Assembly (NCBI GenBank): GCA_947039395.1
Contig: CAMQYS010000011.1
Location: 1 to 54,386, forward strand
Direction: 5' to 3'
From: an uncultured Deferribacteraceae bacterium
GTDB taxonomy: Bacteria > Chrysiogenota > Deferribacteres > Deferribacterales > Mucispirillaceae
Length of the DNA stretch: 54,386 nt
Made by a program: the position numbers and the translations under genes. Below, piece after piece: positions 5,086 to 40,102 of the stretch. The notes beneath the pieces were generated by a model. It made no database searches, had not been told where the DNA came from, and was given only the letters and a program-made list of their open reading frames with translations. Within the stretch, counting starts at the first letter, position 1. The number at the start of each line of letters is the position of its first letter.

Positions 5086-8000
5086 ATGTTAAAATCGATG
5101 TATTCTGCAGTATCAGGGATGAGTGTTAATCAGACTTCTATGGATGTTATTGGTAATAATATAGCCAATGTCAATACTATAGGATTTAAAATGGGTAGAG
5201 CAGTGTTTCAAGACTTAATGAGTCAAACACTTTCTGGTGCAAGAGCTCCATCTGGTTCAATGGGAGGTATAAATCCTGTTCAAGTAGGTTCAGGTGCAAC
5301 TTTAGCGGGGATTGATACCATTTTTGAAGGAGGTTCACCTAATGCTACTCAAAGAGTAAATGATCTAGCGATTGCTGGAGAGGGTTTCTTTATAGTTAGT
5401 GGTGGTGGCGAACAGAACTCATATACTAGAGCGGGAGATTTTGAGTTTGATATATCAGGTACTTTAACAACTCCAACGGGGTATAAGGTTCAAGGTTGGA
5501 TGCATGATCCTGTAACAGGTGCAGTTATCAATGATGGTGTTACATCAGATATTGTTTTAGGAGAAGAGTATAAGGTAATGCTTTCAAAAGAGTCTACAGA
5601 GGTTAATATTGCGGGAGTATTAGATACAAGAGCCACTCCATCTACTTTAGAGTATCCGATGTTTATGACTCAAGCATTAGGTAATCAGTCGATTTTTGAT
5701 TTAGCAAATTCAACCGGTGTTGATCTAGGGATTAGTAAAGGCGACACAATTACGATAAAATCACATATTACAAATAATACTGATATGGGAGAGATTGTTG
5801 GTTCAAGTGGCCAAACAATAGGTTTACATAATGGGAACTTTATTCAGTTTAATATAGCTGGTATTTCGGCAGAAGTGTTAACGTATGATTCATCAGGAAC
5901 ACATAATCCAGGTGATGGAAAATTTACAACAGTTGAAGAATTCATTGAAGAGATGAATTTTATGTTAAAGCGAGTTGCAAAAGGAACGAGTACGGATTCT
6001 GTAGATTCCTTTACTCCAGCCGCAAATTTATCTATAGTTAATGGTCAATTTGAACTTGATTCAAACTTACCTTTTACAATAGATTCTATGTCAGGTACAG
6101 GTATTTTGACAGATCTATTAGGTGGTTTATCAGGTAGTTATGTTGCAGGACAAAAACGTAATACTAACGAACTATTTGTTCAACAAGATGTTGTTGCTGG
6201 AACGGATTTTGATTCGATGGATGATTTTGCTTCAGAGATTAATGGAGCTATAAATGGTCAAGTTGTTGATAACGGTTTTTTAGCTGAATTTTTAGATAAC
6301 AACTTCGGTATGTCAGATGGCGAAGGAATTAATATCGGTGCAAAAGTTATGGTAACAACAACATACGCTGGTGGAAATTTAGTAACATTGATTGATGCTA
6401 TGACACTGACTGCAACCCTAACTATTGCAGCTGGGACGAATGTTACTCTTGGTGATGACATGAACATCGCTAATAGTGGATTTAAAATAGGTGGAGATAA
6501 CTGGAGTATAAATGGTGGTAACGTAATTTTAGGTGGTTCATTACATACTAGTACTGCTACTCCTACTACGATTGCTGGTACAGATGGGATGACGATAGGA
6601 GAAAAGATTACTTTAAGCGCAGGCGCATCAATTATTAATCCAGCTGGAATAGCTGATATAAAACTTGGTGGACAAATGACTGTACCAACAACAGGTGCAG
6701 CTGCTACATGGTCTCCGTTTGGAGTAACAAACCCAGTAACGACTTCAGCATCAATTACAGGAACAATTGTATTACCAACTGCACTTACTTTACCAGCAAA
6801 CATGACGGTAACGGTACCTGGAACTCCAGCTGATACAGTTTATCCTGCTGGAAGCGCAATACCAGCAGGCACTACTCTTCCAGTAGGCACTATAATTGCA
6901 GGAGCTGATTTAACGGATTTTGAGATACCAGCAGGAGCAAGCGTTGGAGCAGGCTTTAATGTGACAGCAACAATTCCAACTGGATTCATTATACCAGCAG
7001 GAACACATATTTCTGCAGGGGCAGCGCTTACTGGTGGTGTGATGTTATCTAAAGGTACATCAATACCAGGTGGTACTACACTTAATTTTACAGAAGAAGC
7101 AGGTGGTGGGTTAACATTACCACAAGGTACTATTTTGACTGATGGCATGATTATAGATGGCGCTACACTAAGCCCTGCTAATTCACTTCCTAATACATTA
7201 ACTCTTCCAGCAGGCACAGAATTTACTCCAGCCAATACACTTTCTACGAATGGATATAGGGATATAGATATCCCTCTAAAGTATACTAGTCAACCTGGTC
7301 CTCAACAAGGTTCTGGATCATTTAATACTGTTTCTGAGTTGGCAAGAGAGTTAGCATTTAGATTATCTAATTTACAATCAAACCTAGCCCCAGGAGCTAT
7401 AGGGTACACACCAGGTTTTGATCAAGCTAGAGATGTAGTTCATGCTACGAATGTTAACTACTCTATGAACGGGAACGCATTTACTCTATCTTATGGTGGT
7501 GGTGCAGATATTCAGCTTAGTGAATCAGATATGGTTCCAGCGCCTGGTGGAGATGCGCCTAATCCATTTTTAAAGACTATTTTAGATGCGTCATTTACTA
7601 GAGTTAATACAGCAGGTGGAACGGTTTCAAACGTTGAATTAAACACAACGAACAAGAATGCTTCAACAGGAGATATAGATGGTACAGGAAGATTATCATA
7701 TACATATAGTGCAACAACGGAGAATTCATTGGTAGATCTTTCTAACCCAGGAACAGATTTAGGAATGAATAAAGGTACTACTGGAGTTCCTGGCGATAAG
7801 ATAACCTTTAACTTTGGAACAGATCAAATTGTGATAGAGTATACTGATGATCCAAATGTTAGTGGTGGCTTTAGTGATGTAAAGGGAGCAAATGGAATTG
7901 AGGCTGCAATTAACGAAGCATTACTTGCTAAAGGTGGAGTATACAGCGGACTTGATTTTCAAGGTAATTTTGATGAAACCCCTCCAACTTTTGAATTTTC

Positions 8001-9405
8001 AACAAGTACAGGTGCAGCGTATCCGTTTGGTAAGGTAACATCAACTTCATCAACTCCTTATTTAGCAGATATGTTTGATACAGCAGTAAGAGGAACGGTT
8101 GTACGTAATACTACACCTGTTGTTGGTTCTGCGATTGTAGCAAATGTTCCTAGTATAACAGGATTGGAGTTTATAAGTTCTCGTGCGAACGATAATTTTA
8201 CTAAAAATCTATTAGATGAAAATCTTGCAAATAATGGTATCTCTTTAGATAGATCAACAGTATCAGATGTGTTCTTAACTGTTGCTGATGAAGATACAGA
8301 AATATCTGATTTATATAGTGATCAAGGAATATATTTAGGTTTCTCTGAGACTAATACAAATATAACATTTGATGCATCAATAGATAGTGAAGATATCAAT
8401 AACCCTAACTTCTTTAATGTTACAACAGATACAACAGTACAAGATCTTATGGATGCAATGGAGGCATTTCTAAACTTAGGTAATGAGCATAATGAGTTTG
8501 GTAATGTATTTATGAAAGATGGTAAAATTAATATTGTTGGAGAAAAAGGAGCAGGTAATAATATTGATTTCTTTAAACTTGAAGGTCCAAGTACTCCTGG
8601 GTTTGCTAGTTTCAATAACTATATTTCAAGAGTAACTCAAACAACTGCAACTGGTGGGTTTGGTACTACAAGTTTTAATATTTATGATGAACAAGGTAAT
8701 CCACATCTACTATCTTTTGACTTTGCTTTATCTAATGAAAGTAATAATGAGTGGAAAATGAAAGTTTCAACTCCTGAAGAATTTAACACAGTTAGTATTG
8801 ATGGTGCTAGAACAAATGAGGTTACAATTAAATTTAATCCAGATGGTACGATAGCTTATGTGTTTGATGATACGCAAACTCCTGTTGCTATATTAAATGA
8901 TTTAAAACTTGATTATACTACATCAAATGGTACGAACTCAATTAATGATATCAGCTTAAACTTAGGTGCTGCTGGAGAACAAGATGGATTAATTATACAA
9001 GGATCACCTGGTTACTTTTCAAGATCAGATACAGATGGTTATCCATTAGGGACTTTAAAAGAGGCATCATTTAATACTGCAGGAGAGTTTGTTGGTACTT
9101 ATACAAATGGACAGATAAGAACTTTAGCACAATTAGCTTTAGCTACATTTGCGAATAATCAAGGGCTAACAAGAGCTGGAGATACTATGTTCCAAGAGAC
9201 ATCAAACTCAGGACAACCATCAATAGGCAGAGCTGAAACTGGATCTAAAGGTAAAGTTATGGCAGGTAACCTAGAGCGTTCGAATGTTGATTTATCTAGA
9301 GAGATGGTTGATATGATTATTACACAGAGAGGATTCCAATCAAACTCAAGAGTTGTAACAACATCTGATGAGATGATACAAGAAGTACTTAACATGAAAA
9401 GATAA
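5086..9405 (+). CDS. flgE: Flagellar hook protein FlgE, very large
   Basis: FlgE polymerises into the hook. The conserved ends are present: the N-terminal rod/hook domain (LKSMYSAVSGMSVNQTSMDV, NNIANVNTIGFK) and the C-terminal helix region (LERSNVDLSREMVDMIITQR to the end). The family is commonly 400-800 aa; this one has 1439. The extra length is surface-domain insertions. They include a stretch at about residues 570-720 built from IPAGT/LPAGT/VGAG-like turns, which looks like a beta-solenoid. Ribosome sites (GGAGG) occur at about 5053 and 5071; the ATG at 5086 gives the canonical N-terminus. It is third in the fliK-flgD-flgE unit. Confidence 0.92.
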   Translation: MLKSMYSAVSGMSVNQTSMDVIGNNIANVNTIGFKMGRAVFQDLMSQTLSGARAPSGSMGGINPVQVGSGATLAGIDTIFEGGSPNATQRVNDLAIAGEGFFIVSGGGEQNSYTRAGDFEFDISGTLTTPTGYKVQGWMHDPVTGAVINDGVTSDIVLGEEYKVMLSKESTEVNIAGVLDTRATPSTLEYPMFMTQALGNQSIFDLANSTGVDLGISKGDTITIKSHITNNTDMGEIVGSSGQTIGLHNGNFIQFNIAGISAEVLTYDSSGTHNPGDGKFTTVEEFIEEMNFMLKRVAKGTSTDSVDSFTPAANLSIVNGQFELDSNLPFTIDSMSGTGILTDLLGGLSGSYVAGQKRNTNELFVQQDVVAGTDFDSMDDFASEINGAINGQVVDNGFLAEFLDNNFGMSDGEGINIGAKVMVTTTYAGGNLVTLIDAMTLTATLTIAAGTNVTLGDDMNIANSGFKIGGDNWSINGGNVILGGSLHTSTATPTTIAGTDGMTIGEKITLSAGASIINPAGIADIKLGGQMTVPTTGAAATWSPFGVTNPVTTSASITGTIVLPTALTLPANMTVTVPGTPADTVYPAGSAIPAGTTLPVGTIIAGADLTDFEIPAGASVGAGFNVTATIPTGFIIPAGTHISAGAALTGGVMLSKGTSIPGGTTLNFTEEAGGGLTLPQGTILTDGMIIDGATLSPANSLPNTLTLPAGTEFTPANTLSTNGYRDIDIPLKYTSQPGPQQGSGSFNTVSELARELAFRLSNLQSNLAPGAIGYTPGFDQARDVVHATNVNYSMNGNAFTLSYGGGADIQLSESDMVPAPGGDAPNPFLKTILDASFTRVNTAGGTVSNVELNTTNKNASTGDIDGTGRLSYTYSATTENSLVDLSNPGTDLGMNKGTTGVPGDKITFNFGTDQIVIEYTDDPNVSGGFSDVKGANGIEAAINEALLAKGGVYSGLDFQGNFDETPPTFEFSTSTGAAYPFGKVTSTSSTPYLADMFDTAVRGTVVRNTTPVVGSAIVANVPSITGLEFISSRANDNFTKNLLDENLANNGISLDRSTVSDVFLTVADEDTEISDLYSDQGIYLGFSETNTNITFDASIDSEDINNPNFFNVTTDTTVQDLMDAMEAFLNLGNEHNEFGNVFMKDGKINIVGEKGAGNNIDFFKLEGPSTPGFASFNNYISRVTQTTATGGFGTTSFNIYDEQGNPHLLSFDFALSNESNNEWKMKVSTPEEFNTVSIDGARTNEVTIKFNPDGTIAYVFDDTQTPVAILNDLKLDYTTSNGTNSINDISLNLGAAGEQDGLIIQGSPGYFSRSDTDGYPLGTLKEASFNTAGEFVGTYTNGQIRTLAQLALATFANNQGLTRAGDTMFQETSNSGQPSIGRAETGSKGKVMAGNLERSNVDLSREMVDMIITQRGFQSNSRVVTTSDEMIQEVLNMKR
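6780..7240 (+). repeat. PAGT-type degenerate repeat domain inside flgE
   Basis: This region encodes many short turns of the form (I/L)PAGT, LPVGT, VGAG and LPQGT spaced roughly every 10-25 residues. The DNA is not an exact repeat, so the pattern is at protein level. The regular spacing suggests a solenoid fold exposed on the hook surface. Confidence 0.6.
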
Positions 9406-13100: not shown

Positions 13101-13643
13101 ATGTTGAAAATAGATCATAAAAGTTACAAAACCGAAGAAAATGATATTGCACTTATAACTAACAAGAGAGAAGCTGAAAACCGTGAGCAGATGTTATATG
13201 ATATTATTGATCAGATTGATAACTACAATGAGTATGTAGAGCATTGCAAGTTAATGAAGTCGCAAGGTCTCAAGTTTATACAGGTAGAGAACGTAGATGC
13301 TATCAAAGCTAAATGGAGTAAAATATTTGCATCATCTATCTCAACTGTTGATAAAAACAGAGTTTATTTTAAGGAGTTTAGATGGCATCTATTTAGTTAT
13401 GAATTATTAAAGTGTGAAAATAATTATGATGCAAGAATCTGTTTTGATAAGGCTATAAAAACCGATGTGTATATCTTTTATCAACATAGTGATGATGTCT
13501 ATATAGTTGAAAATCCAAACTTACTGAAATCTACAGATTTTGATATTGATGAGGATATATATGTTTTTGATATTAAAGAGAAGTGGACATATATTCGTAC
13601 ACATGAAAGTGATTTTGGACCGTATTTTTATAGTGCGAAATAA
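13101..13643 (+). CDS. DUF4275 family protein
   Basis: This is a soluble protein of 180 aa. The second half shows the DUF4275 pattern: a W-K-x-F-A segment, FKEFRWHLFSYELL, then DVYIFYQHSDDVYIVENPNLL, and a C-terminal WTYIRTHESDFGPYF. The biochemical role of DUF4275 is unknown; such genes are often found in arrays with immunity proteins. ATG 13101 is preceded by ACGGAGTG. It is the first intact gene of the island. Confidence 0.72.
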   Translation: MLKIDHKSYKTEENDIALITNKREAENREQMLYDIIDQIDNYNEYVEHCKLMKSQGLKFIQVENVDAIKAKWSKIFASSISTVDKNRVYFKEFRWHLFSYELLKCENNYDARICFDKAIKTDVYIFYQHSDDVYIVENPNLLKSTDFDIDEDIYVFDIKEKWTYIRTHESDFGPYFYSAK

Positions 13644-13772
13644 ATCTGTCATTTATTATGTTGTTTGTAATAATGAGCTAAAAAGTTAGCAATTAATTTC
13701 ATTGAAACCATATTATGAGAGTACAGATAAAAGTATGTGATAGGATTACTGTTTTTAGTGGGTGGTTGTGGT

Positions 13773-14004
13773 ATGGTTCAAGAGCTATATGATAACTGTA
13801 ATGATGATATGTTATTTCCGTTTTTGCAAGTTACAAAGAGTGGAGTTGACTGTAAGGCAGAGTTTTTATGCAACGCTTAGCGAAGTAGAGTGTGATAGAG
13901 ATGAGTCTGATGAATGGTTAGTGAAGCGTATCGGCAGAAAATTTGAACGATATATTTTCTACTTGAAAAAACATAAAAATGAAATATTAGTTATAGCAGA
14001 ATAG
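13773..14004 (+). pseudogene. Frameshifted small gene
   Basis: ATG 13773 opens a frame (MVQELYDNCNDDMLFPFLQ) that stops at a TAG near 13878. The reading continues sensibly in another frame as SEVECDRDESDEWLVKRIGR to TAG 14002. The longer single-frame ORF from GTG 13762 starts with an implausible hydrophobic/Cys-rich peptide. I read this as one gene with an indel near 13855-13875. The family was not recognised; the length (about 75 aa) and context match the other island genes. Confidence 0.5.
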
Positions 14005-14040
14005 GTTAAATGATTATTGATAAAAAAGAGGGAAAGGGTT

Positions 14041-14442
14041 ATGGAAAATTTACAGAAGAACCCTATTGCACTTGTGAAACATTTAATTGATGAGAAAATT
14101 ATCACAGAAGATTTAAACGTATTTGAACAACTTAAAACTATCGAAGAGATTTTGCTTTTACTAAGGGAGAGTTTTAAAAAAACATATCCGAATATGAAAA
14201 TAAAAGTGACAAGTAAGAGCATTCATTATGCAAAAGAATTTAATGATGAACACATTAAAGAGGTTGCATATATTTTAGATGATTTAGATCAGTATCTTTC
14301 AGTTGGTGGGTTTATGGATCACGATGATTCTGTAGACTTTTTCAACGATAGAATAACAGAAGAGGGTTTTAAATATACACCGATATCGGCAGTCGATACG
14401 ATGGTGTTAAGCTTAATGCCTTCTAAATGTTTAGGTTTGTAA
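14041..14442 (+). CDS. Hypothetical protein, island member
   Basis: This small soluble protein has 133 aa. I chose ATG 14041 over an upstream TTG because GAGGGAAAGG lies just before it. The N-terminal half is helical (LVKHLIDEKIITEDLNVFEQ) and the C-terminal half is acidic (YILDDLDQYLSVGGFMDHDD). There is no signal peptide or membrane segment. The family was not recognised. Size, charge and neighbours are those of immunity-type proteins, which is an inference from context only. Confidence 0.6.
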   Translation: MENLQKNPIALVKHLIDEKIITEDLNVFEQLKTIEEILLLLRESFKKTYPNMKIKVTSKSIHYAKEFNDEHIKEVAYILDDLDQYLSVGGFMDHDDSVDFFNDRITEEGFKYTPISAVDTMVLSLMPSKCLGL

Positions 14443-14482
14443 AAAATCGCTAACAGTAAAATAATAAGCAGGATGTGTAGCT

Positions 14483-14899
14483 ATGAATGATGAAAAAAAT
14501 AAGTTGATAGACAGTAAGTTGATAAACAGGCTGGATAAGAGAGTTAAAGATAAGCAATCTCAAATGGGTAGTTGTATGAGTGATACAAAATGGAAGAAAT
14601 TATTTGAAGCGATTAATAGTGTTGATGTTGAGATTGTAAGTTCTAAAAACATATCTATGTATCAAGATGATGAGCCAGAAAATTTATTTAATATATCGTT
14701 AAAAATATGTGGAGATAAGTTTACAGCTGATGAAGATGGAGCGTGTCCAGAAAGACTTAGAGATATAGAGTTTATTATTATTACAGTACGATCGGTTGAT
14801 GATATGATGAAACTTAAAAATGCGATTGATAGCGTTGGATGTTTATTTGAGTATGAAATAGTAGATCAAATATCTATAAAAATTTATGGATATAAGTAG
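14483..14899 (+). CDS. Hypothetical protein, possibly DUF6678-like
   Basis: This is a soluble protein of 138 aa. A central motif CMSDTKWKKLFEAI near residues 32-45 recalls the small DUF6678 family, but I cannot confirm this without a profile search. After it comes an alternating beta region (VDVEIVSSK, NISLKICGD, IEFIIITVRS, VDQISIKIYGYK). There is no signal peptide. An AGGATG-type ribosome site lies near 14470. The gene is in the run of plus-strand island genes; function unknown. Confidence 0.6.
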   Translation: MNDEKNKLIDSKLINRLDKRVKDKQSQMGSCMSDTKWKKLFEAINSVDVEIVSSKNISMYQDDEPENLFNISLKICGDKFTADEDGACPERLRDIEFIIITVRSVDDMMKLKNAIDSVGCLFEYEIVDQISIKIYGYK

Positions 14900-14928
14900 A
14901 CGAAATATTATAGAGTAGGTATGGTAAG

Positions 14929-15203
14929 ATGATAGATCAAAAACATGTAGAGATGTTTAAAGGTGAGCTTAAATATATTTTAGATGATGAGATTTTAAAC
15001 GGTAATAAAATCGTTTAAACGTGTATGGGGGTTCTAAAGTATCGGATAAACATATAATTATATGGCTTGAAAAACCGTTTCTAACAGCTATTAGAAAAGA
15101 TAGTGAACAGATTAAATATAATGAACTGAACGATCCTCACTACTGGAAAGCTGATTATATGGATAGTAAGAACGATCAAACTTTAGCTTGTAAATTTGGC
15201 TAA
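14929..15203 (+). pseudogene. Frameshifted island gene
   Basis: ATG 14929 begins MIDQKHVEMFKGELKYILDD and runs 29 codons to TAA 15016. The frame two bases over, open from 15009, continues with a well-formed peptide (YGGSKVSDKHIIIWLEKPF ... LACKFG) to TAA 15201. The fit of the two halves suggests a single indel near 15010-15020 in one gene of about 90 codons. The second half alone (GTG 15021) has no ribosome site. The family was not recognised. Confidence 0.6.
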
Positions 15204-15222
15204 ATATATTGTAGAGGATAAA

Positions 15223-15810
15223 ATGAAAAGGTTGAATTTTGATGAAAAATTATTTTATATCACAGGAGAGATCCCTCCGATTAAACTTCTAATGAGTGAA
15301 GAGGAGTGTTTAGATATTCTGCCTCCTCCTCAAGATATATCTGAGTTTAATAAGGGGCGGATTTCTATATGGCGATACGGCAATAGACTTGAGTTGCATT
15401 TTACAGGTGATGATAAAAACAGCAGAAAACTATCTATGATTTACAGCGATACTTTTGAAGAGTTTGAAAGTATGGATAATTTTGAATTTATCCCGTGGTT
15501 GATAAATAGTTGTAGCGATCAAAAATATTCAACTAATATTTCTCTGCCGTATGTTTTGCAGAAATTAAAGAGTGAAAATATTGAAACAGTTGTAAGGTAT
15601 TCAAAAACTTTAGATATGGTTGAGATACGTTTAAGTAGAAGTAAAGTAGTGTTATCTTTTGAAAATATAAATCAAGATTACACAAATAAAATTGATTGCG
15701 ATTTAGAACAGATAAATAAAAATGAAGCGTATCATTTCACAGTTTTTTATCTTACTGTTATAGATCAGAGTGAATTAAATGATTATCAAATAGTTGATAT
15801 TATTTACTAA
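15223..15810 (+). CDS. Hypothetical protein, island member
   Basis: This is a soluble protein of 195 aa. I chose ATG 15223 because GTAGAGGAT precedes it; a TTG start at 15196 would overlap the previous broken gene. Visible features are an N-terminal MKRLNFDEKLFYITGEIPP, a proline patch ILPPPQD, and a mixed alpha/beta remainder. There are no membrane segments or catalytic motifs I recognise. Its place in the array suggests an immunity-like role, but this is not shown by the sequence. Confidence 0.6.
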   Translation: MKRLNFDEKLFYITGEIPPIKLLMSEEECLDILPPPQDISEFNKGRISIWRYGNRLELHFTGDDKNSRKLSMIYSDTFEEFESMDNFEFIPWLINSCSDQKYSTNISLPYVLQKLKSENIETVVRYSKTLDMVEIRLSRSKVVLSFENINQDYTNKIDCDLEQINKNEAYHFTVFYLTVIDQSELNDYQIVDIIY

Positions 15811-15858
15811 AAATAATACGATGTTTAGATGCTAACAATGATAAAATAGAGGGTTGAT

Positions 15859-16416
15859 ATGGGAACGATAAAATGTGGTTTTTGGATGTGTAGATTTTTA
15901 GTAACGGATAAAGAGTTTGCAGAGTTTGTAAATTTCTGTGCAGGTAAAGAGTTTCGTTTTCATGCTTCAATGCTAAATTACCCTCTTGCATCGCCTCAAG
16001 AAGTTATAGAGAATTATCGCTTGGCATACTCAAGAATAATTTCAAAAACAAGTTATGCAAATCATGGATACGATTGCTACTCTTTAAAAGCAGATTGGTT
16101 TAAGGGTGGATTAGGAACTACATCAAGACATTATGGTAATTATCCTTTTTTTCAGATAGACTCTCCTAAAGCATATAGCGTATCTGATGGTGATGGATAC
16201 TTTCACTATGAAGATATACACCAACAAGAACCGAGAGCGAAAGAGGTGTTTTCAGAGGTATCTTCTATAATTAAAAAAATATCAAGACCTATTTTTGAAA
16301 ACGGTAGACCTGTATACTCTATACGAATAAGTGAAGATGCTTGGAATGATTTAAAAGAAAGCTATTGGTATGAAACATTTGGTAAAGATAATAATGTAAC
16401 TACAAAGTGGAAGTAA
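15859..16416 (+). CDS. Hypothetical protein, aromatic-rich, island member
   Basis: This protein has 185 aa and begins MGTIKCGFWMCRFLVTDKEF after a GAGGG ribosome site. It is rich in Tyr, Phe and His, with segments such as GYDCYSLKADWFKGGLGTTS and DGDGYFHYEDIHQQEP. There is no signal peptide. The family was not recognised. The composition suggests a compact globular protein. Confidence 0.6.
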   Translation: MGTIKCGFWMCRFLVTDKEFAEFVNFCAGKEFRFHASMLNYPLASPQEVIENYRLAYSRIISKTSYANHGYDCYSLKADWFKGGLGTTSRHYGNYPFFQIDSPKAYSVSDGDGYFHYEDIHQQEPRAKEVFSEVSSIIKKISRPIFENGRPVYSIRISEDAWNDLKESYWYETFGKDNNVTTKWK

Positions 16417-16523
16417 GAGTTAGATAAAGTAATAGAATATTTTTGCTTTAGTTAATTGATTGTGAGTTTCATTTACTAGATTAATCAAGATACAATTAAT
16501 AAGAAATTTTAGGAGAAAGTGCT

Positions 16524-17213
16524 ATGAACTACACTTCATTTATAAAACATCTATACGATGATTACGTTGATATATGGGAGAAAGGATTTAAGAAAGAGGC
16601 GAATAAATCTATACGAGATTTCTTTCTTATTTTTGATAAGATTGATCAAGCTGAACAATATAAATTGTTCTATAAATTTTGTGAAGATTACTGTGATAAC
16701 AATGTTGAACAAGTAACAAAATTAAGGGAACGTGGAAACGGTGCTGTACCTTACGAACTTGCAAAAAGAATGTTATCATATCTTGAAAAGTGTTACGAAG
16801 AAAATCTGATGCCACAGATTCGTTGGTACTATGAAATGGCGTACGATATAGGTGTGAAATCTATTAATACAAGTGAGATAATTAGTAAAGCGTATAACCA
16901 TAAAGATAGTGATAAAAAATCTATAAACCTCATGTTCTCTAGTAAGGTTGGTACGCTTTCATGGGGTAGTCATCATTTTCCTGAAGGGTGTATTGTTGGA
17001 AAAGAAACGATTGAGAAAACGATTAAAAGTGCAAAAGAGATGATCGCAAAACATGAAATAAAAGATGAGCTGAAAAATGAGTTTTTCTACTACTGTAAAC
17101 TGTATGAATTATGGTGGGAGTTTGAAAAAAATGATGTTACAGATTTTATAGATTTTTGTAATAAAAACGGTTTGAAGTTTGACGAGATTAAGGCGTATTA
17201 TTACGATCGTTAA
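16524..17213 (+). CDS. Hypothetical helical protein, island member
   Basis: This is a mostly helical soluble protein of 229 aa. ATG 16524 follows TTTTAGGAGAAAG, a good ribosome site. Notable segments are HLYDDYVDIWEKGFKKEANK at the N-terminus and LYELWWEFEKNDVTDFIDFC near the C-terminus. No catalytic motif or membrane segment was seen, and the family was not recognised. It is followed at 17292 by the next gene in the same direction. Confidence 0.65.
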   Translation: MNYTSFIKHLYDDYVDIWEKGFKKEANKSIRDFFLIFDKIDQAEQYKLFYKFCEDYCDNNVEQVTKLRERGNGAVPYELAKRMLSYLEKCYEENLMPQIRWYYEMAYDIGVKSINTSEIISKAYNHKDSDKKSINLMFSSKVGTLSWGSHHFPEGCIVGKETIEKTIKSAKEMIAKHEIKDELKNEFFYYCKLYELWWEFEKNDVTDFIDFCNKNGLKFDEIKAYYYDR

Positions 17214-17291
17214 AAGTTGTCGTATTACAGTTACTATATTATTACAGTTAATATGTTATTACAGTTACGATATTATAAAGGAGCTAACAGA

Positions 17292-17774
17292 GTGGCTAGA
17301 TGGAGTAAATTACAGAAACAGATATATCTATTGATAGATAAAAATATCAACCTACAAATTCATTGTTCAGTTATAAGAATGAAAAGCGAGAGAGGTAGTG
17401 CAGGTTTGCCACGTTACTTTATTACTTTAGATAAAGATGTGATATTTGATTATCCGAAACAATTTATAAATAAAGAGATGCCTGATGAGGTTAGTAAATA
17501 TTCTTTTACAGAAAATATTACACCGAAAGTTCAAGAACTTTATCCGTATATAACAGAAATTTCAGATATATCAGATCTGTTTAGAGAGTATATTGATACG
17601 CCGATAAATGACCTGTATGAGAAAGAGTTTAAGAGTGATGAGTGGGGATTAACAGATATTTTAAAATCTGCTGATAGACGAATAGGTTTATCTAAGTTAA
17701 AACAGTTTATATCAAATACGCAGAACGATGTGATAGAGAAAATTATAACTGCACGTCAGATAGCAAGAGTGTGA
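17292..17774 (+). CDS. SF0329-like conserved protein
   Basis: The protein has 160 aa from GTG 17292, chosen because AAGGAGC precedes it and MARWSKLQKQIYLLI is the family-like N-terminus. The body shows NLQIHCSVIRMKSERGSAGL, then PRYFITLDKDVIFDYPKQF. I recall this pattern from small conserved proteins annotated as SF0329 family, whose function is unknown. The frame upstream of the GTG is open but encodes an odd Tyr-rich peptide over short TTACAGTTA repeats. It overlaps the next ORF closely. Confidence 0.6.
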   Translation: MARWSKLQKQIYLLIDKNINLQIHCSVIRMKSERGSAGLPRYFITLDKDVIFDYPKQFINKEMPDEVSKYSFTENITPKVQELYPYITEISDISDLFREYIDTPINDLYEKEFKSDEWGLTDILKSADRRIGLSKLKQFISNTQNDVIEKIITARQIARV

Positions 17775-17776
17775 TT

Positions 17777-18310
17777 ATGTATAATAGATTTAGTGATATA
17801 AGTAAATTTATATTACATTCTGATAGATTAAAAGTAGTTAATAATTATGAGGTGTATATATCGAATGAGGAAGATCATGATATCTATGTTGATATAGAGG
17901 ATTATAATTTTAAACCTACAGAAGATGAAAAGCTATCACAGTCGAAGTTAGATAAATATAGTAACAATTTAAATATTGTACCTCAAGCGTTTGACCTGCT
18001 AAAACCACTTATTATAGATGTTGCAAGAAGCATCTGTAAGCTTGATAATCTTGTTCAAGAGTATAATAAGGAGATGGATAATAGTTATGATTACTCTATA
18101 TATGGAGATGATGATTTTCATTATGAGTTACCGTATGTTCTTCTAAAAAAACCTAGTCTTGTGATACTTAATTATGTTGGGTGTCGTATAAATACTGAGT
18201 TTCATGTAATCTTTGAATACGAACATAATGCATTTTATTTTAAAAGTTTCGGACTTAACAAAACGCTTTTAGAGAAGTGGCAAAACTTTGAGATAAGGGT
18301 TGATAGATAG
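17777..18310 (+). CDS. Hypothetical protein, island member
   Basis: This is an acidic soluble protein of 177 aa. ATG 17777 lies two bases after the previous stop; a GTG at 17771 overlapping that stop is the alternative. The ribosome site is weak, so translational coupling is likely. Segments include NYEVYISNEEDHDIYVDIED and an internal FHYELPYVLLKKPSLVILNY. The family was not recognised. Confidence 0.6.
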   Translation: MYNRFSDISKFILHSDRLKVVNNYEVYISNEEDHDIYVDIEDYNFKPTEDEKLSQSKLDKYSNNLNIVPQAFDLLKPLIIDVARSICKLDNLVQEYNKEMDNSYDYSIYGDDDFHYELPYVLLKKPSLVILNYVGCRINTEFHVIFEYEHNAFYFKSFGLNKTLLEKWQNFEIRVDR

Positions 18311-18344
18311 ATAAGATAATGGTTTTTTGATGAGGTGATGTTTT

Positions 18345-19037
18345 GTGGATATTGATAATTTAGACTATTTTAATAAAGATGATCTAATTAAAATCCAGAA
18401 TGAATTAATAAGTAAAGTATCGAAGAAGAGTATGATTGGTTCTATTAATTATATAGCTGGTGTTGATCTTGCATATTTTAGTAAGAGTGATAAAGAGTAT
18501 GCTGTTTGTGTGATCGTGATATTAGATTATAGAACTCATGAAGTTATAGAGATTATATCAGAAGTTGATGAAATAAAATGTCCGTATATCTCAGGATATT
18601 TATCGTTTAGAGAGATTCCATTATTTTTAAAAACAGATAAGCGAGTAGTTAATACTCCAGATGTTTATATATTTGATGGAAATGGATATCTACATAAAAG
18701 ACATATGGGGCTTGCTACTCATGCAGGTATATTACTTGATAAACCTACGATAGGAGTTGCAAAAAGTTATTTTAAAACAGAGGATACAGATTTTGTTATG
18801 CCGATAAATGAGAGTGGTTCGTATAGTGATATTATTATAAATGATGATATTTACGGTTGTGCATTTCGTGCACATAAAGATGTGAAACCTATTTTTATTT
18901 CTACAGGAAATCATATAGATTTAGACACAGCAAAAAATATAGTTTCAAGTTTAATAACAGATGAAAGCAGAGTACCTATCCCTACACGACTTGCCGATAT
19001 TGAAGCAGGTAGAGTTAGAAAATTGATCGTTGAGTAG
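18345..19037 (+). CDS. nfi: Endonuclease V (deoxyinosine 3' endonuclease)
   Basis: Endonuclease V nicks DNA one base 3' to deoxyinosine, starting repair of deaminated adenine. The family motifs are in order: AGVDLAYF with catalytic Asp at residue 41, YISGYLSFRE, DGNGYLHKRHMGLATHAG and KPTIGVAKS. The last part is IPTRLADIEAGRVRKL. A length of 230 aa is normal. Start GTG 18345 follows GAGGTG; the ATG at 18337 is out of frame. A repair gene among immunity-type genes is unexpected, and whether it belongs to the island functionally is unclear. Confidence 0.88.
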   Translation: MDIDNLDYFNKDDLIKIQNELISKVSKKSMIGSINYIAGVDLAYFSKSDKEYAVCVIVILDYRTHEVIEIISEVDEIKCPYISGYLSFREIPLFLKTDKRVVNTPDVYIFDGNGYLHKRHMGLATHAGILLDKPTIGVAKSYFKTEDTDFVMPINESGSYSDIIINDDIYGCAFRAHKDVKPIFISTGNHIDLDTAKNIVSSLITDESRVPIPTRLADIEAGRVRKLIVE

Positions 19038-19074
19038 ACAGTTTAGATATGTAAGTTTATTATTTTAAGGAGAT

Positions 19075-19204
19075 AGATTTACGACACAAAAATATATATT
19101 GCAAAAATTTATAGATTTATTTAATGAAGCTGATGCTGAAAAATTTTCAGAACTTTATTCAGAGAGGATACAGGGATAAGCTTAGTTTCTCAAACAAGAA
19201 AGAG
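19075..19204 (+). pseudogene. NTF2-like gene fragment with lost start
   Basis: A strong ribosome site AAGGAGA (19066-19072) sits before ACG 19081, where an ATG would be expected. The peptide TQKYILQKFIDLFNEADAEK resembles the first helix of NTF2/SnoaL-like proteins. Small indels then move the reading between frames (FSELYSE, then DTGISLVS). I read it as a truncated relic. Confidence 0.4.
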
Positions 19205-19264
19205 TAGGTGATTACTAAAATGTTTGACTATAATAATTATGTGTTATTAATAAGAGAGGATAAA

Positions 19265-19750
19265 ATGTTGGCAAAACAGAGAGGCAAAAAAAGAAAGCTT
19301 AAATCACTTTTAAATTATATAGATGGGTTTGTACCGTTTTTAGAAACAGATGAAAAGTACGAACATTTTCATGTACCATGCAGTAGAAGCTTTATAGATA
19401 GTCCAAAAACTAAATTAAAACTTAAAGCTATGTTTTTAGAAAAATGGCTTAAAACAACTGAAAAATTTATAGAGATAAGTAAAATAAAATCATTACCATT
19501 TTGCAAAATAGTTGCAGTTACGATTGAAGATGATTATTGGGGATCACAGATAATAATTTTTTACTCTAAAGATTATTACGATAATTTTTTTAAAAGAAAT
19601 GATAAGTATCAAACATGGACAGAGGTAGATAACAGACCATCATTTATTAAACAACATGGACTTACTACACCACTTACAGAAAGGTGTATTAAGGAAACAG
19701 TTATTGATGATGATTATGAAGAGAGTAGCTTTATGTGGGTTTACTCTTAA
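19265..19750 (+). CDS. DUF3916 family protein
   Basis: The protein has 161 aa from ATG 19265 (GAGAGGAT before it). GTG 19208 and ATG 19220 are in-frame alternatives. The DUF3916 pattern is clear: KRKLKSLLNYIDGFVPF, then YEHFHVPCSRSFIDSPKTK, FCKIVAVTIEDDYWGSQIII, and a C-terminal ETVIDDDYEESSFMWVY. The domain's function is unknown. It sits in the array with other immunity-like genes. Confidence 0.75.
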   Translation: MLAKQRGKKRKLKSLLNYIDGFVPFLETDEKYEHFHVPCSRSFIDSPKTKLKLKAMFLEKWLKTTEKFIEISKIKSLPFCKIVAVTIEDDYWGSQIIIFYSKDYYDNFFKRNDKYQTWTEVDNRPSFIKQHGLTTPLTERCIKETVIDDDYEESSFMWVYS

Positions 19751-19813
19751 TACTATCTTGATCTACATATAAATTTCTGTAACGTAAAAAATATGAATTG
19801 AGGGTTGATAATT

Positions 19814-20458
19814 ATGCAACTAAATGCAACGTTGATACATGAAAGGATAGCGATCTTTATGAGAAACACCTTGCCTGATTTTACTTGTAATAAATCTATT
19901 AAAATTGCACAAAGAAAAAGTGATGCAAGAATTGATTATATCGGTTGGTCGGTTGGCAGGCGATATGGCGATAGTTATTTTGTAAGTTTTCACAGTAAGA
20001 TAAGTCATAGAGCAATTGATCATCTATATGATAAAATATTTGAAATCAGCTCAGAGCATGATCGGTATATATCTAAACATTATAATCAGTGTATATTTCA
20101 CCATTTTGATTTTATAGGAAAGTTTAAAGTTACAAATCAGCAAGAGTTAGATGATGCTTTGAACCGTCTTAGTGGATATTTGAAAGACGATCTTGAATGT
20201 TTTTTTAACAGTTTTAAATCGGATAATGATTACTTAACATACCTTTGCAATAAGGATTTGTTTTTTAGTTGGAGTGAAGTATTTGCATTGAAACGGATTT
20301 TATTATGTTTAAATATTGATAGAAAACTCTTGATAAAAACGCATCAATTTAATCTGTCTTTATGGGAAGATAGAACGGACAATTCTTACTCTAAACCGTA
20401 CTTAGATGGGCTTAAAAAAATCGCAAAATATTTTCCAGATGTAGAGTTTGTAATATAA
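19814..20458 (+). CDS. Hypothetical protein, island member
   Basis: This is a soluble protein of 214 aa. ATG 19814 was chosen over TTG 19805 because GAGGG lies ten bases upstream. Segments include YIGWSVGRRYGDSYFVSFHS and a helical C-terminal half (FFSWSEVFALKRILLCLNID). No signal peptide or catalytic motif was recognised. Confidence 0.6.
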   Translation: MQLNATLIHERIAIFMRNTLPDFTCNKSIKIAQRKSDARIDYIGWSVGRRYGDSYFVSFHSKISHRAIDHLYDKIFEISSEHDRYISKHYNQCIFHHFDFIGKFKVTNQQELDDALNRLSGYLKDDLECFFNSFKSDNDYLTYLCNKDLFFSWSEVFALKRILLCLNIDRKLLIKTHQFNLSLWEDRTDNSYSKPYLDGLKKIAKYFPDVEFVI

Positions 20459-20487
20459 AAAATAATGAAAACATACGAGGTTGAGAT

Positions 20488-20757
20488 ATGAGATTTCCAT
20501 TTAAAGATTCTGAAGATGTAGCGGTTTTTGCTTGTTGTCATATTATAGATGAAGGTGCAGATATCTGTTACGTTAGCCACGATGAAGATGATGGCGCATG
20601 GCAATTCTTATGTGATAGAGATAATCACGAAGATTTTGAAGGACGAGTTATATCACTTAAAGAAGCGTTTGAAATTGATAACTCTATAGGAGAGTTAGCA
20701 GATCTGAAACTAGGTTGTGAAGCGGTTAGAGATGGCAAAACTCTGTCTTGGAAATAA
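20488..20757 (+). CDS. Small conserved protein, Imm33/DUF2185-like
   Basis: This acidic protein has 89 aa. The central ICYVSHDEDDGAWQFLCD, followed by VISLKEAFEIDNSIGELADL and GCEAVRD, matches a widespread family of small proteins that I associate with immunity-type DUF2185/Imm33. That name needs a profile search. ATG 20488 follows GAGGTTGAG. The role is inferred from family resemblance and context. Confidence 0.6.
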   Translation: MRFPFKDSEDVAVFACCHIIDEGADICYVSHDEDDGAWQFLCDRDNHEDFEGRVISLKEAFEIDNSIGELADLKLGCEAVRDGKTLSWK

Positions 20758-20911
20758 TATAAACGTAACATGATTAAGAGTGTTAAATTGATAATAATAT
20801 TGTTTTATCCTTAATTTATTCTATAATATAGATGTAGTTATACAGATATAAAAATAAATAAAATATAAGTGTCTCTAAGTATAGTTACTATTTTATAAAT
20901 GAGGGATTGGT

Positions 20912-21490
20912 ATGAGCAGAGATCTATTTGTGAAATTTTTAAAAAAGTATGCTAAGAGTTCAGATACGATAGAACCGACTGAAGCTATACTAGACTGGTG
21001 TAGCGATAAATTGCCTAAAGTGTTATTAGATTTTTGGAGCGAGCACGGTTTCGGTAATTACGGTAATGGGCTTATAAAGGTGATTGATCCATCTAAATAT
21101 ATGAGCAGTTTCTACACATGGTTAGGTCGTAATGATTTTGATAAAATCCCGATACTTGTAACAGCGTTTGGAGATATATTTTACTACAGGAAACTATCTG
21201 AAACAGATAACGATATAAGTCTACTTAATATTCATCACCGACAAATATCTGTATGTACTTACAGTCTTGAAGAGTTCTTTGAAAAGTTTATAGTAGATGA
21301 TGAAGTAGCTAAAGAGGTATTAAAAGTAGATATATTTAATGAGGCGATTAAATTAAAAGGTGATCTTGCATTTGAAGAGATATTCTTCTTTACACCAGCA
21401 TTAATTTTAGGTGGTGGAGAGGATATTAAGCATATAGATAAAGGTGATGGTTTTACTCATCAACAGGTTTTATTTCAACTAGGAAATTAG
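20912..21490 (+). CDS. Tdi1-type (GAD-like/DUF1851) immunity protein
   Basis: The protein has 192 aa. The N-terminal GAD-like part contains KLPKVLLDFWSEHGFGNYGN, and the C-terminal DUF1851-like part ends FTPALILGGGEDIKHI and then HQQVLFQL. This two-part layout is that of Tdi1, the immunity protein against the type VI secretion DNase Tde1. ATG 20912 follows a GAGGGA ribosome site. No Tde-like toxin or T6SS gene is adjacent, so it looks like an orphan immunity gene. Confidence 0.72.
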   Translation: MSRDLFVKFLKKYAKSSDTIEPTEAILDWCSDKLPKVLLDFWSEHGFGNYGNGLIKVIDPSKYMSSFYTWLGRNDFDKIPILVTAFGDIFYYRKLSETDNDISLLNIHHRQISVCTYSLEEFFEKFIVDDEVAKEVLKVDIFNEAIKLKGDLAFEEIFFFTPALILGGGEDIKHIDKGDGFTHQQVLFQLGN

Positions 21491-34997: not shown

Positions 34998-36311
34998 ATG
35001 ATTCGCATTCTACTTTCAATATTACTAATGTCTCTTTTTACGGTAAATCTATATTCAAGAGATATTTCATTAGAGAACGCTATACAGTTAGGTATAGAAA
35101 ATAGTGATGATTTAAATGCTGCCATGAAACAGATAGAAAAGGTTGAAGAAGTATTAAATGAAATTTCTGCAAATAGACTTCCTACGATTTCGTTAAATGG
35201 ACAGTATCGAGTAGGTTCGGATCTATTTTTTAGTAAGAATTTAACATCTAGTAACTATATTGGTAACCTTGGGTTAGAAGCGAACTACCTACTTTATGCT
35301 TTTGGAGCAATTAGCGACTCTATTAATGCTGTTAAGTTTACAAAAGAGGCGATAGCAGTACAGAGAGATATTGTTGAGACAGAGTTAGTTTATTCAATTA
35401 AACTAGCATATTTTTCTGCGCTTGTATCAGATCTTTTTCTAGAGATAGCTAAAGAATCTTACGCCAATGCAGTAAAGAGTAAAAAATTGATTGAAACTCA
35501 AGCAGCGGTAAGAGCTCCACAAGCTGATTTAATAAAAATATCTTCTGATATAGCAAGTAGAAAAATTGAGGTTGCAACAGCGAATATTGATAGATCTAAC
35601 GCTTATAGACTTCTTAAAACATTAATATATATAGAACCAAATGAAGATATTAATTTATCTACTTTATTTAAGCAAATGAATAAACCGATATTAACAGAGG
35701 GAATGATAACCGCGAACTTAAGTAATAGTGATGGGTTTGAGCTTATCAATCAATTGAAAATATATGATATTCAGATAGAGTCAGATATGTATAATGCTAA
35801 ATCAGTTGGAAAGGGTATTCTTCCTAAATTGAGTATTGCAGGTGGTTATGGGTTAAGTAATTATGGTAACTTTTCAGAGACATCAGAACTAGGATTACCA
35901 GCAGGTAATATAACAAGCGATGAAGGATATATCGGATTATTCTTAAGTTTTCCATTTTTTGATGGATTTAAGTCAAAATCTCAGAAGAAACAATTTATCG
36001 TTGATAGTCAAATAAAAGGTTTTCAAAAAAATTCAGAAAGAAGAAATATAACAAGTGAACTTTTAGACTCTCTTCTAGTATATAACCAGTATCAGAACAT
36101 ATTAACGCTTAATAATGAAGCGATAGTTTTAGGACAGCGTTCATATGAACTGTCACTTGCAAGGTTTCTTAATGGACAAACATCTGCAACAGAGTTAAAT
36201 GATGTTGAAAGAACTTTATCACTGCTTAAACGAGATAGAGCATTAACGATGAATAATATATTTACTTCGTTAGCAGTTATCGGAAGATATTTACCGGGAG
36301 TATCACAATAA
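34998..36311 (+). CDS. TolC-family outer-membrane efflux protein
   Basis: This is an outer-membrane channel of a tripartite exporter, 437 aa. A signal peptide (MIRILLSILLMSLFTVNLYS) precedes two repeated OEP halves with long helices, DISLENAIQLGIENSDDLNA at the mature N-terminus, and beta-barrel strands such as ISLNGQYRV and LSIAGGYGLSNYG. It ends one base into the ATG of the next gene, so translation is coupled with the adaptor and pump. Confidence 0.82.
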   Translation: MIRILLSILLMSLFTVNLYSRDISLENAIQLGIENSDDLNAAMKQIEKVEEVLNEISANRLPTISLNGQYRVGSDLFFSKNLTSSNYIGNLGLEANYLLYAFGAISDSINAVKFTKEAIAVQRDIVETELVYSIKLAYFSALVSDLFLEIAKESYANAVKSKKLIETQAAVRAPQADLIKISSDIASRKIEVATANIDRSNAYRLLKTLIYIEPNEDINLSTLFKQMNKPILTEGMITANLSNSDGFELINQLKIYDIQIESDMYNAKSVGKGILPKLSIAGGYGLSNYGNFSETSELGLPAGNITSDEGYIGLFLSFPFFDGFKSKSQKKQFIVDSQIKGFQKNSERRNITSELLDSLLVYNQYQNILTLNNEAIVLGQRSYELSLARFLNGQTSATELNDVERTLSLLKRDRALTMNNIFTSLAVIGRYLPGVSQ

Positions 36312-37048
36312 TGTTTAGATGGATAAAGCTATTAGTTATATTTGGAGTCATAGGATTTCTAATTTATTTCTCTTTTAAAAAAATAGATGAAATAATTTTA
36401 AGAGATATTGAAGTTGTAAATTTAGAGAAGATATATAATGAGAAAGGTTTTCCTGTAGATGTAAAAGAAGTTATATTGCATGATAAGTCTGTATTTATTA
36501 AAGATTTATCGTTTGTGAAGCTACCCAATAGTAAGTTATACCGAGCATACTCTGATGCTGATTTATTTAAAAATATTAGAGTGGGAAGTGATGTTTTATT
36601 ACCACGAACTATTAAAGTAGATGGAAGAGATGTTCTTGAGGATGAAAGTTCTAAAATCATATTAGGTAAAGTTGTACGTGTATCTAATACTAAAGATTGG
36701 AGAACAGGTTTCTATGCTATAGATATATCATTTGATGAGAAATTAGAAAAAAGTACATTCTATTCAGCGAAAGTTGTATTTTTAGAATATAAAAATGTTA
36801 TTGTTGTTCCAAGAACATATTTACAGGTTTTAGATGATAAATATTACGCATGGATAGTTCAAGATAATGTTTCAGAAGAAGTAAAGTTAAATGTTCCATT
36901 ATGTGATGGTTACTCTTGTTATGTTAAGTCAGGTTTAAAAGTTGGCGATCTAATTATATCAAGTGATACTAAAAAATTGTATGACGGTAAAAAAGTTTTG
37001 ATTGCTAATGATAAAGAATCTCAAAAGATGGAAAGCTTTAAATATTAA
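36311..37048 (+). CDS. Atypical membrane-fusion (adaptor) protein
   Basis: The protein has 245 aa with an N-terminal membrane anchor (LLVIFGVIGFLIYFSF). The C-terminal half has the membrane-proximal beta pattern of RND adaptors (VVVPRTYLQVLDDKYYAWIV, then GLKVGDLIISSDTKKLYDGKKV). Typical adaptors are 350-400 aa with a paired lipoyl domain and a helical hairpin that meets TolC. Neither is evident here, so it is a shortened or divergent form. Its position between tolC and the pump gene supports the role. Confidence 0.65.
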   Translation: MFRWIKLLVIFGVIGFLIYFSFKKIDEIILRDIEVVNLEKIYNEKGFPVDVKEVILHDKSVFIKDLSFVKLPNSKLYRAYSDADLFKNIRVGSDVLLPRTIKVDGRDVLEDESSKIILGKVVRVSNTKDWRTGFYAIDISFDEKLEKSTFYSAKVVFLEYKNVIVVPRTYLQVLDDKYYAWIVQDNVSEEVKLNVPLCDGYSCYVKSGLKVGDLIISSDTKKLYDGKKVLIANDKESQKMESFKY

Positions 37049-37063
37049 ATAAGGACTGATTAG

Positions 37064-40000
37064 ATGATAAAAGCGTTTGTTAGGCGGCCTGTAACCACAT
37101 TAATGTTAGTATTATTTTTTGTGTTAATGGGTATGGTATCAGTGTTTACTATAAATATTGAAGAGTATCCAAAAGTTGATCTACCGATTGTATCTGTAGA
37201 AATCGTTTATCCGGGTGCAACTCCGTTAGAGATAGAGTCGGAAATACTTGAGATCGTAGAAGATGCAGTAAGTGAAGTATCGCAAATAGATAAAATTACT
37301 GCACAAGCATTTGATTCTATGGCACTCATAATGATTGAGTTTGATATCTCTGCTGATATTAATATACAACTACTTGAAGTTAAGGATAAAGTTGAAGCTG
37401 TATTAGATGAATTTCCTAAAGATATTGAAACACCTCTTATATCAAAGGTGGATGTTCTTGCGTCTCCTGTACTTATTTTATCTTTATCATCTGATAACCA
37501 TTCTTTAAAAGATTTATATGAATTTGCTGATAATGATCTAAAACCAGTTTTCAACTCTGTTCGTGGAGTTTCATCTGTTGATGTTAACGGTGGTGATATA
37601 AGGGAGATAAGAGTTACCTTAGACGCTGAACTTATGAAACAGAATTTTGTTACAATTGCAGATATTATTGATGGAGTATCTAACTCTAATGTTAATGTAT
37701 CTGGTGGTGAGATTAAACAGTTGGGTCGTGCAACAAACGTTAAGTTCAATACTGAATTTACATCTATGGAGGATATTAGAAACCTTGTTTTCACAACATC
37801 AGAGGGTAGAAACTTTAAACTAGGCGATATAGCTAATGTTGAAGACTCTATAGCTGATCGTGATAGCGGTGGTACATATAACGCTGAAGACTCAGTAATT
37901 CTGTTACTAAAAAACTCAAGTGATGGTAATGCAATTGAGATATCTAAAGAGGTAAACACAAAACTTCCATCTATTAGAAAACTTAGATTAGAACCTGGAA
38001 TGGAACTTGAGATAGTTAAAGATACCTCTACATATATATATAATGAGACAGTTTCAACTGTTGAAGGTATCATTATGGGTATGATTTTAACTATTATAGT
38101 TATCCTTATTTTTACTGCAAATATATCATCAACGTTAGTTACAACAATCATTATTCCTACATCGCTAATCGCAACAATGTTTCTTGTATCTCAAGCAGGT
38201 TTTACAATAAACTCAATGACACTGCTTGCAATAGCATCTGTTTTAGGAACACTTATTGCAAATGCAATCATAATATTAGAGAGTGCAACATCTAAACTTG
38301 CTGAAGGCTTATCTCCTGAAGATGCAGCTATTGAAGGTACTAAATCTGTTATTTTACCTGTTTTTGCAGGATCTGGAACAAACTTAGCCGTATTTATTCC
38401 TATCGCATTTATGGGAGGAATTGCTGGTAAGTTTTTTGTACAGTTTGGTATGACAGTAGTTTTTGCAACAATAATATCTATTATAATATCTTTCTCATTA
38501 GCACCTATGCTTATTGCGAAATTATTTAAACAACACAGCAAGAAAAATATATTTGAGAGAGCGTCAGACGCTTTCAATAACTTTATTATATCAAACTACT
38601 ACACTGTGTTTAAATTTCTTTGGAGATTTAAAGTTATCGGATTAGGTATATCGTTGGCTATAATGATATCATCAATTATGCTTATAAAATATCTAGGTTT
38701 TGAATTTCAACCATCTTCAGATCAAGATGAATTGAATGTGAGACTTGTAACACCTCAAGGATCTACTATTGAAACAACAACAGAGAAATTAAGGTTGATT
38801 GATGAGATAGTTTTAGCACATCCTGAAGTTGAGTCCTCTACAGGACAAATAGGTGAAAATGGACCTACAAATGCACAATTATTTGTCAACTTAGTGCCAG
38901 CAGAAGATAGAGAGTTGTCAGATCTTGATCTAGCTGTACTTATTACAGAAGAAGTTTCTGGTATCCCTGATGTAGAAGTTTCTGCACTTAGGGGAGGAGG
39001 AAGAGTAGATTTAACTTTAAATGTTTATGGTCTAGATTACGATAAACTAGTTGACTACTCTAGAGAAATTGAAGATGTATTAGTGAAAGCTGATGTATTT
39101 AGATCTATTCAGTCGAGTTATAGTATACCAAAAACAGAGAGCAGATTTATCCCTAATCAAGAAATATTAAATGAATATGGAATTAATAATGCTCAGATAG
39201 CAAGAGTAATAAGAGCCTCTATATACGGTAATGATGATAATCAATATAAAGAAGATGGTAATCGTTACGATATAAATATTCTATTAAATCCTCATTCACG
39301 TAACTCTGCAAAAGTTTATGAGAATATATTTGTTTCATCTCCAAAAGGATTAATTCCTATTAGTACGCTTGGAGAAATTAAAGATGTTCAGTCTACATCA
39401 GATCTCCTAAGAGTTGATAGAGAGAGAGTTGTTGAAATTGAATTAACATTAGGTAAAAGTTCATTAGGCAAGGTACAATCGTTACTAGTTGAAAAGTTAG
39501 AAGCAATAAATTTTGATGATGGTTACGGTTATTATTTTGCAGGTAATGCAGAGAATGCTGCTGAAACAAATGCAGAGATGGGTAAAGCTTTTATTCTTGC
39601 AATTATATTAACTTATATGGTTTTAGCTGCTGTATTAAATAGTTTTATTCATCCATTTACTATTGCGGTATCTATTATTACATCATTTGCAGGAGTATTT
39701 GTTTTCCTATTTTTTACAGATTCAAGTATAAATATAGGATCAATGCTAGCTATGATTATGCTTGTTGGTTTATCGGTTAACAATGCGATATTAGTTGTCG
39801 AATATGCAATAGCTAAAATTAAAAATGATGGGGCTAGTATACATGATGCAATGTGGGAAGCGTTATCGTATAAGATGAGAACGATAATGATGACTTCAAT
39901 AGCAATTATTCTTAGTATGACTCCACAGCTATATTCTTCTAATATGATGAAGTTATCAATGGGTTCAGTTTTAATTGGTGGAATGACAGCATCGGTTTTA

Positions 40001-40102
40001 TTCACATTGATACTAACTCCTTTAACGTTTTACTTTTTAGAAAGAATGATTGAATTTACAGCTAAGATAACTTCTAAATTTAGTAAAAAAACAGATGGTT
40101 GA
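37064..40102 (+). CDS. RND (AcrB-type) inner-membrane transporter lacking proton-relay residues
   Basis: The protein has 1012 aa with twelve membrane segments and two large periplasmic loops, the HAE-type RND layout. The start is RRPVTTLMLVLFFVLMGMVS, and the porter-domain text is regular (YPGATPLEIESE, VSSVDVNGGD). In TM4 the AcrB sequence around Asp407-Asp408 (LVDDAI) reads LIANAI here (Ala399-Asn400). In TM10 the Lys940 position (SAKNAIL) reads SVNNAIL (Asn906). The rest of both helices is well conserved, so the changes look specific. Proton coupling of the known kind is therefore doubtful. Stop-to-start distance from the adaptor is 15 bases. Confidence 0.9.
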   Translation: MIKAFVRRPVTTLMLVLFFVLMGMVSVFTINIEEYPKVDLPIVSVEIVYPGATPLEIESEILEIVEDAVSEVSQIDKITAQAFDSMALIMIEFDISADINIQLLEVKDKVEAVLDEFPKDIETPLISKVDVLASPVLILSLSSDNHSLKDLYEFADNDLKPVFNSVRGVSSVDVNGGDIREIRVTLDAELMKQNFVTIADIIDGVSNSNVNVSGGEIKQLGRATNVKFNTEFTSMEDIRNLVFTTSEGRNFKLGDIANVEDSIADRDSGGTYNAEDSVILLLKNSSDGNAIEISKEVNTKLPSIRKLRLEPGMELEIVKDTSTYIYNETVSTVEGIIMGMILTIIVILIFTANISSTLVTTIIIPTSLIATMFLVSQAGFTINSMTLLAIASVLGTLIANAIIILESATSKLAEGLSPEDAAIEGTKSVILPVFAGSGTNLAVFIPIAFMGGIAGKFFVQFGMTVVFATIISIIISFSLAPMLIAKLFKQHSKKNIFERASDAFNNFIISNYYTVFKFLWRFKVIGLGISLAIMISSIMLIKYLGFEFQPSSDQDELNVRLVTPQGSTIETTTEKLRLIDEIVLAHPEVESSTGQIGENGPTNAQLFVNLVPAEDRELSDLDLAVLITEEVSGIPDVEVSALRGGGRVDLTLNVYGLDYDKLVDYSREIEDVLVKADVFRSIQSSYSIPKTESRFIPNQEILNEYGINNAQIARVIRASIYGNDDNQYKEDGNRYDINILLNPHSRNSAKVYENIFVSSPKGLIPISTLGEIKDVQSTSDLLRVDRERVVEIELTLGKSSLGKVQSLLVEKLEAINFDDGYGYYFAGNAENAAETNAEMGKAFILAIILTYMVLAAVLNSFIHPFTIAVSIITSFAGVFVFLFFTDSSINIGSMLAMIMLVGLSVNNAILVVEYAIAKIKNDGASIHDAMWEALSYKMRTIMMTSIAIILSMTPQLYSSNMMKLSMGSVLIGGMTASVLFTLILTPLTFYFLERMIEFTAKITSKFSKKTDG

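Follow-up and report, generated by a model that had tools for sequence, protein, structure and literature searches.

A clade of RND permeases without the relay Asp residues and with a conserved uncharged pocket in the membrane core

An RND operon with a shortened adaptor

The window, a stretch of 54,386 nucleotides, comes from an uncultured Deferribacteraceae bacterium with a genome size of 2.1 Mb; uncultured Deferribacteraceae MAGs are its closest relatives among named records. On its plus strand, which carries all the features described for the operon, a TolC-family gene, an adaptor gene and a permease gene follow one another in this order. The first (34998–36311) encodes an outer-membrane factor of 437 aa (Pfam OEP, 129 bits), and its stop overlaps the start of the adaptor gene (36311–37048) by one base. 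The permease gene (37064–40102) lies 15 bases beyond the adaptor. Its frame of 1012 codons, which the sequence-only reading had described as intact, is indeed open throughout and contains zero internal stops. Pfam ACR_tran (PF00873) matched the permease over its full length (641 bits, residues 1–992, profile positions 1–1020 of 1021), which assigns it to the HAE-type RND permeases. The curated NCBIfam RND subfamilies (RND_permease_1, RND_permease_2, MdtB, MdtC, AcrB and CusA/CzcA) all scored below their cut-offs; the best score, 624 bits, falls short of the 1250 set for RND_permease_2.

The permease is encoded alongside a TolC-family channel and a periplasmic adaptor, the latter being shortened to 245 aa. 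This adaptor has kept the beta-barrel and membrane-proximal parts and has lost the lipoyl and alpha-hairpin domains. The RND_mfp profile covers only its C-terminal half, and the domain loss, seen by alignment with AcrA and with full-length adaptors of the clade described below, is shared by four species. Adaptors of the wider clade are mostly full-length (about 340–390 aa), while those of the sub-branch to which the query belongs measure 222–245 aa, the lipoyl and hairpin regions being gone. Within this sub-branch, the TolC and RND genes of G037 (L039:5447–9867) have no adaptor between them, and in G329 (L063:1–3588) neither an adaptor nor a TolC gene is adjacent to the permease in the available sequence. 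An RND adaptor devoid of the alpha-hairpin, BesA of the BesABC system of Borrelia, functions in a working pump (PMC3807786), although BesA retains the lipoyl domain that the query adaptor has lost.

Between this genome and G001, the TolC gene showed a dS of 0.50 and the adjacent permease gene a dS of 0.15, a difference that points to recombination affecting the former. Elsewhere in the window, positions 13101–21490 hold small, mostly same-strand ORFs of about 180–230 aa which by eye resemble an immunity-gene array, and positions 5086–9405 encode a very long protein of 1439 aa, judged by eye to be flagellar hook-like.

Relay residues in the permease and its relatives

Alignment of the permease by MAFFT with AcrB, MdtB, MdtC and CusA of E. 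coli K-12 placed A399 and N400 of TM4 (38258–38263) at D407 and D408 of AcrB, and N906 of TM10 (39779–39781) at K940. The three codons are GCA at 38258, AAT at 38261 and AAC at 39779. The flanking helix text was gap-free (GTLIANAIIILE / GLLVDDAIVVVE; VGLSVNNAILVVE / IGLSAKNAILIVE). HMMER alignments of the permease to MdtB, 7wlv and CmeB gave the same placement, and none of the alignments shifts the relay to another place in the helices. Both methods confirm the earlier assignment of these residues within a conserved helix context.

Several relay-associated residues are still present, namely E406 (AcrB E414), S472 (S481), T944 (T978) and N907 (N941). The first of these (TM4, 38279–38281) is invariant across all classes and is a remaining titratable residue, and the position of R971 is held by K937 (TM11, 39872–39874). 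For AcrB-like proton-driven RND pumps, reviews specify the motif GX3DX6E in TM4 (PMC5719797) and one or more acidic residues in the centre of the transmembrane relay (PMC8277102). In the query, G395 and E406 are kept and the Asp of the motif is replaced by A399. The protein is an RND permease by profile, yet it fails both the motif and the one-central-acid rule of these reviews.

The same A-N/N triad was found in all four species of the genus (92–98% identity) and in an orthologue of 46% identity that comes from a different family within the order; no orthologue carries DD/K. Among the four species all frames are intact, the codons for A399 and N906 differ only synonymously, and the dN/dS values are low for the permease (0.06–0.08), the adaptor (0.08–0.12) and TolC (0.07–0.09). 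Judged from these comparisons, the triad is more than a product of chance.

The distribution of the triad was then evaluated in 385 genomes. A protein search gave strong matches in 20 of them, 18 being [A/S/T]-N/N and two DD/K. At the DNA level, a strict pattern that requires [A/S/T]-N within TM4 context matched 29 genomes, and the reversed control pattern matched zero in the same search. Removal of one false match in TM10 and of two non-clade cases from the pattern matches, and addition of three genomes detected by the protein search only, resulted in 29 carriers of the 385 genomes, distributed over 22 families. In G381, the source of the false match, the pattern had hit TM10 text belonging to a DD/T pump. 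The S-N/N protein of G163 (L109:4737–7859) was likewise rejected as a clade member: it clusters with DN/N proteins, does not have the Asn found at position 440 in the clade, and represents an independent case in which an RND of the DN/N type has lost D407. A fragment in G174 has TM4 text similar to the clade and was left out of the tree.

All 29 carriers have Asn at the position of D408 and Ala, Ser or Thr at that of D407. The member from G319 is a fragment, and the 28 full-length proteins were used for K940 and for clade-wide counts. Asn occupies the K940 position in 28/28 of them, Lys or Arg the R971 position in 27/28, and neither Asp nor Glu occurs at the D407 or D408 positions in any (0/28). 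Two maximum-likelihood trees, one computed with the triad columns removed and the other under a mixture model with eight pocket columns removed, both recovered the Asp-free proteins as a single clade (SH-aLRT 99 and 98, respectively). No relatives were found among viral contigs. Plasmids gave no match at the DNA level, and the three protein-level matches examined were DN/N or DD/K. A literature search of open-licence papers yielded no description of RNDs lacking the central Asp.

An uncharged pocket at the site of the relay

The 28 clade members were compared over their whole length with 19 DD/K proteins for columns that hardly vary within the clade and whose residue is uncommon elsewhere. Only seven such diagnostic columns were obtained: N400 (TM4), N440 (TM5), T469 (TM6), L849 (TM8), V905 and N906 (TM10), and P697 in the porter domain, so that six of the seven belong to the membrane core. 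T439 and N440 (38378–38383) correspond to V448 and L449 of AcrB, and each is found in 28/28 members. T469 (38468–38470; 27/28) corresponds to M478 and is located one turn from S472. In inhibitor co-structures of AcrB, L449 lines the relay pocket with D407, D408 and K940, and S481 and T978 are members of the relay hydrogen-bond network (PMC8749003). The S481 position is invariant in the clade, while that of T978, the partner of D407, is relaxed to T/S/A/I/M.

When the two membrane repeats were compared by profile, D407 paired with K940, I445 with T978 and V351 with V884. The last pair corresponds to T343 in TM2 (38090–38092; Thr in 28/28) and its pseudo-symmetric partner T850 in TM8 (39611–39613; Thr in 23/28). 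AlphaFold2 models, built from alignments of four near-identical sequences, reached a mean pLDDT of 32 for the permease and 35 for the adaptor, too low for use. The presumed geometry of the pocket was instead deduced from publications on AcrB and from the repeat within the protein. As read from the conserved columns, an uncharged and conserved Asn/Thr pocket has taken the place of the charged relay; the pocket was rewired as a unit.

The proteins of the clade resemble the HAE-1 pumps of the AcrB/MexB type in the ACR_tran fold, in the TM4 frame G-X3-X-X6-E, in the invariant E414 and S481 positions and in the operon with adaptor and TolC. They differ from them in having no acid at D407/D408 and no Lys at K940, and in carrying N440 and T469 where AcrB has the hydrophobic L449 and M478; the identity is about 22–33%. 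A second comparison is with the DN/N class of RNDs, which is common in the same and in related genomes. D407 is better conserved than D408, and many RND members have one acidic residue only (PMC5719797). DN/N proteins share with the clade Asn at D408 and K940, Thr at V448 and a polar residue at L449. However, this residue is Thr and not Asn, D407 is retained as the single acid, and the class stands apart in the tree. Because the change of D408 to Asn together with K940 to Asn also occurs in this separate class, the step that sets the clade apart is the loss of D407 together with the gain of N440.

Possible energy coupling of the Asp-free pumps

Substitutions that alter charge put AcrB and MexB out of action: the AcrB variants D407N and D408A do not function (PMC13139501), and MexB ceases to transport when the charges of its cluster are changed (PMC5719797). 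An ordinary proton relay can therefore not operate in the clade pump, which is probably energised in another way than the RND pumps investigated to date. The sequence-only reading had favoured a coordinated change, either of function or of energy coupling, over decay. The coordinated change is borne out, being clade-wide, under purifying selection and accompanied by further fixed substitutions in the pocket; sequence does not separate a changed ion from a lost coupling.

The explanation that we favour, tentatively, is that the permease is the inner-membrane part of a TolC-adaptor-RND exporter whose charged proton relay has given way to a polar pocket devoid of charge, and that the pump still cycles and exports. 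The strong purifying selection, the single clade obtained after removal of the relay columns, and the presence of TolC, adaptor and RND genes together in most clade members support this explanation. The switch from the T to the O state, which AcrB performs via protonation of D407/D408, would here be driven by an ion other than the proton, most likely Na+. Such an ion would enter and leave the Asn/Thr pocket between TM4, TM5 and TM10; its identity as Na+ is the least certain step. Since the Asn/Thr set is fixed, a binding site is suggested rather than an empty pocket. In transporters unrelated to RND pumps, Na+ can be bound by hydroxyls and backbone carbonyls with no protein carboxylate, as at the Na2 site of LeuT. 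Known Na+-coupled members of the RND superfamily, for example SecDF and Patched, use acidic residues, which counts against the Na+ proposal. In an exploratory comparison uncorrected for phylogeny, which covered genomes of other phyla, Rnf/Nqr (PF02508) was detected in 20/24 carriers versus 38/136 of the non-carriers that have DD-type RNDs (Fisher p 4e-7). This enrichment agrees with Na+ coupling, but an anaerobic lifestyle may explain the association too, and PF02508 complexes are able to pump H+ as well as Na+. With somewhat more reserve than for the query pump, the reading may be extended to a tripartite RND clade of many families, without any relay carboxylate, in which the invariant pocket formed by N400, N440, N906, T439 and T469 binds a non-proton ion such as Na+.

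The permease could instead be uncoupled. It would then resemble a pseudo-transporter, with the RND fold and the tripartite contacts kept, and would act passively as a conduit, a gate or a scaffold. The inactive AcrB and MexB variants fit this rather unlikely, still serious, alternative, and its strongest point is the degradation of the partners, with the short adaptors, the missing adaptor in G037 and the solitary permease of G329. This degradation is, however, confined to one sub-branch, and full-length adaptors and TolC are kept in the operons of the wider clade. Moreover, fixation of N440, T469, N400 and N906 across 22 families would be unnecessary in a passive protein.

Somewhat less probable is a pump still driven by protons through other titratable residues, for instance E406, E913 (AcrB E947) and K937. 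E406 is invariant, the positions of R971 and E947 are charged in 27/28 members each, and CusA-type RNDs already differ in relay composition (DA/E in the alignment). These same residues are nevertheless equally conserved in DD/K pumps and hence represent no compensating gains, and no new carboxylate is fixed inside any TM core.

One RND subunit of MdtB/MdtC reportedly does not need the relay, and the clade can be likened to it on that point. A non-protonating subunit in a mixed trimer, with the relay on a partner RND as proposed for MdtB2C, would accord with the existence of MdtBC-type heterotrimers (PMC8277102). We regard this as very improbable and reject it as a general explanation: MdtB and MdtC are encoded side by side and both retain DD/K, whereas the clade operons contain one RND gene each, and 15/29 carrier genomes, including all four species of the genus, are without any DD-type TM4 motif by the strict pattern. 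The genome of the window has only two other RND matches (G000:C3:23634-26534, L002, and G000:C19:17539-20628, L003), both DN/N, so that the DD/K relay is absent from every RND found in it. A local mutation or the early decay of an ordinary pump can be practically dismissed, since nothing favours it beyond the missing residues themselves, and orthologues down to 46% identity and throughout the clade share the triad, with intact frames and purifying selection in the four species.

Some inhibitors of the relay pocket form a salt bridge with D408 (PMC8749003), and these are expected to fail on the Asp-free pumps of the clade. Present in about 7% of the sampled genomes, the clade is a natural counterexample that makes the need for a titratable carboxylate in the RND cycle testable. 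If the clade-wide reading is true, binding of a non-proton ion by a pocket of Asn and Thr would give RND pumps a second energising chemistry.
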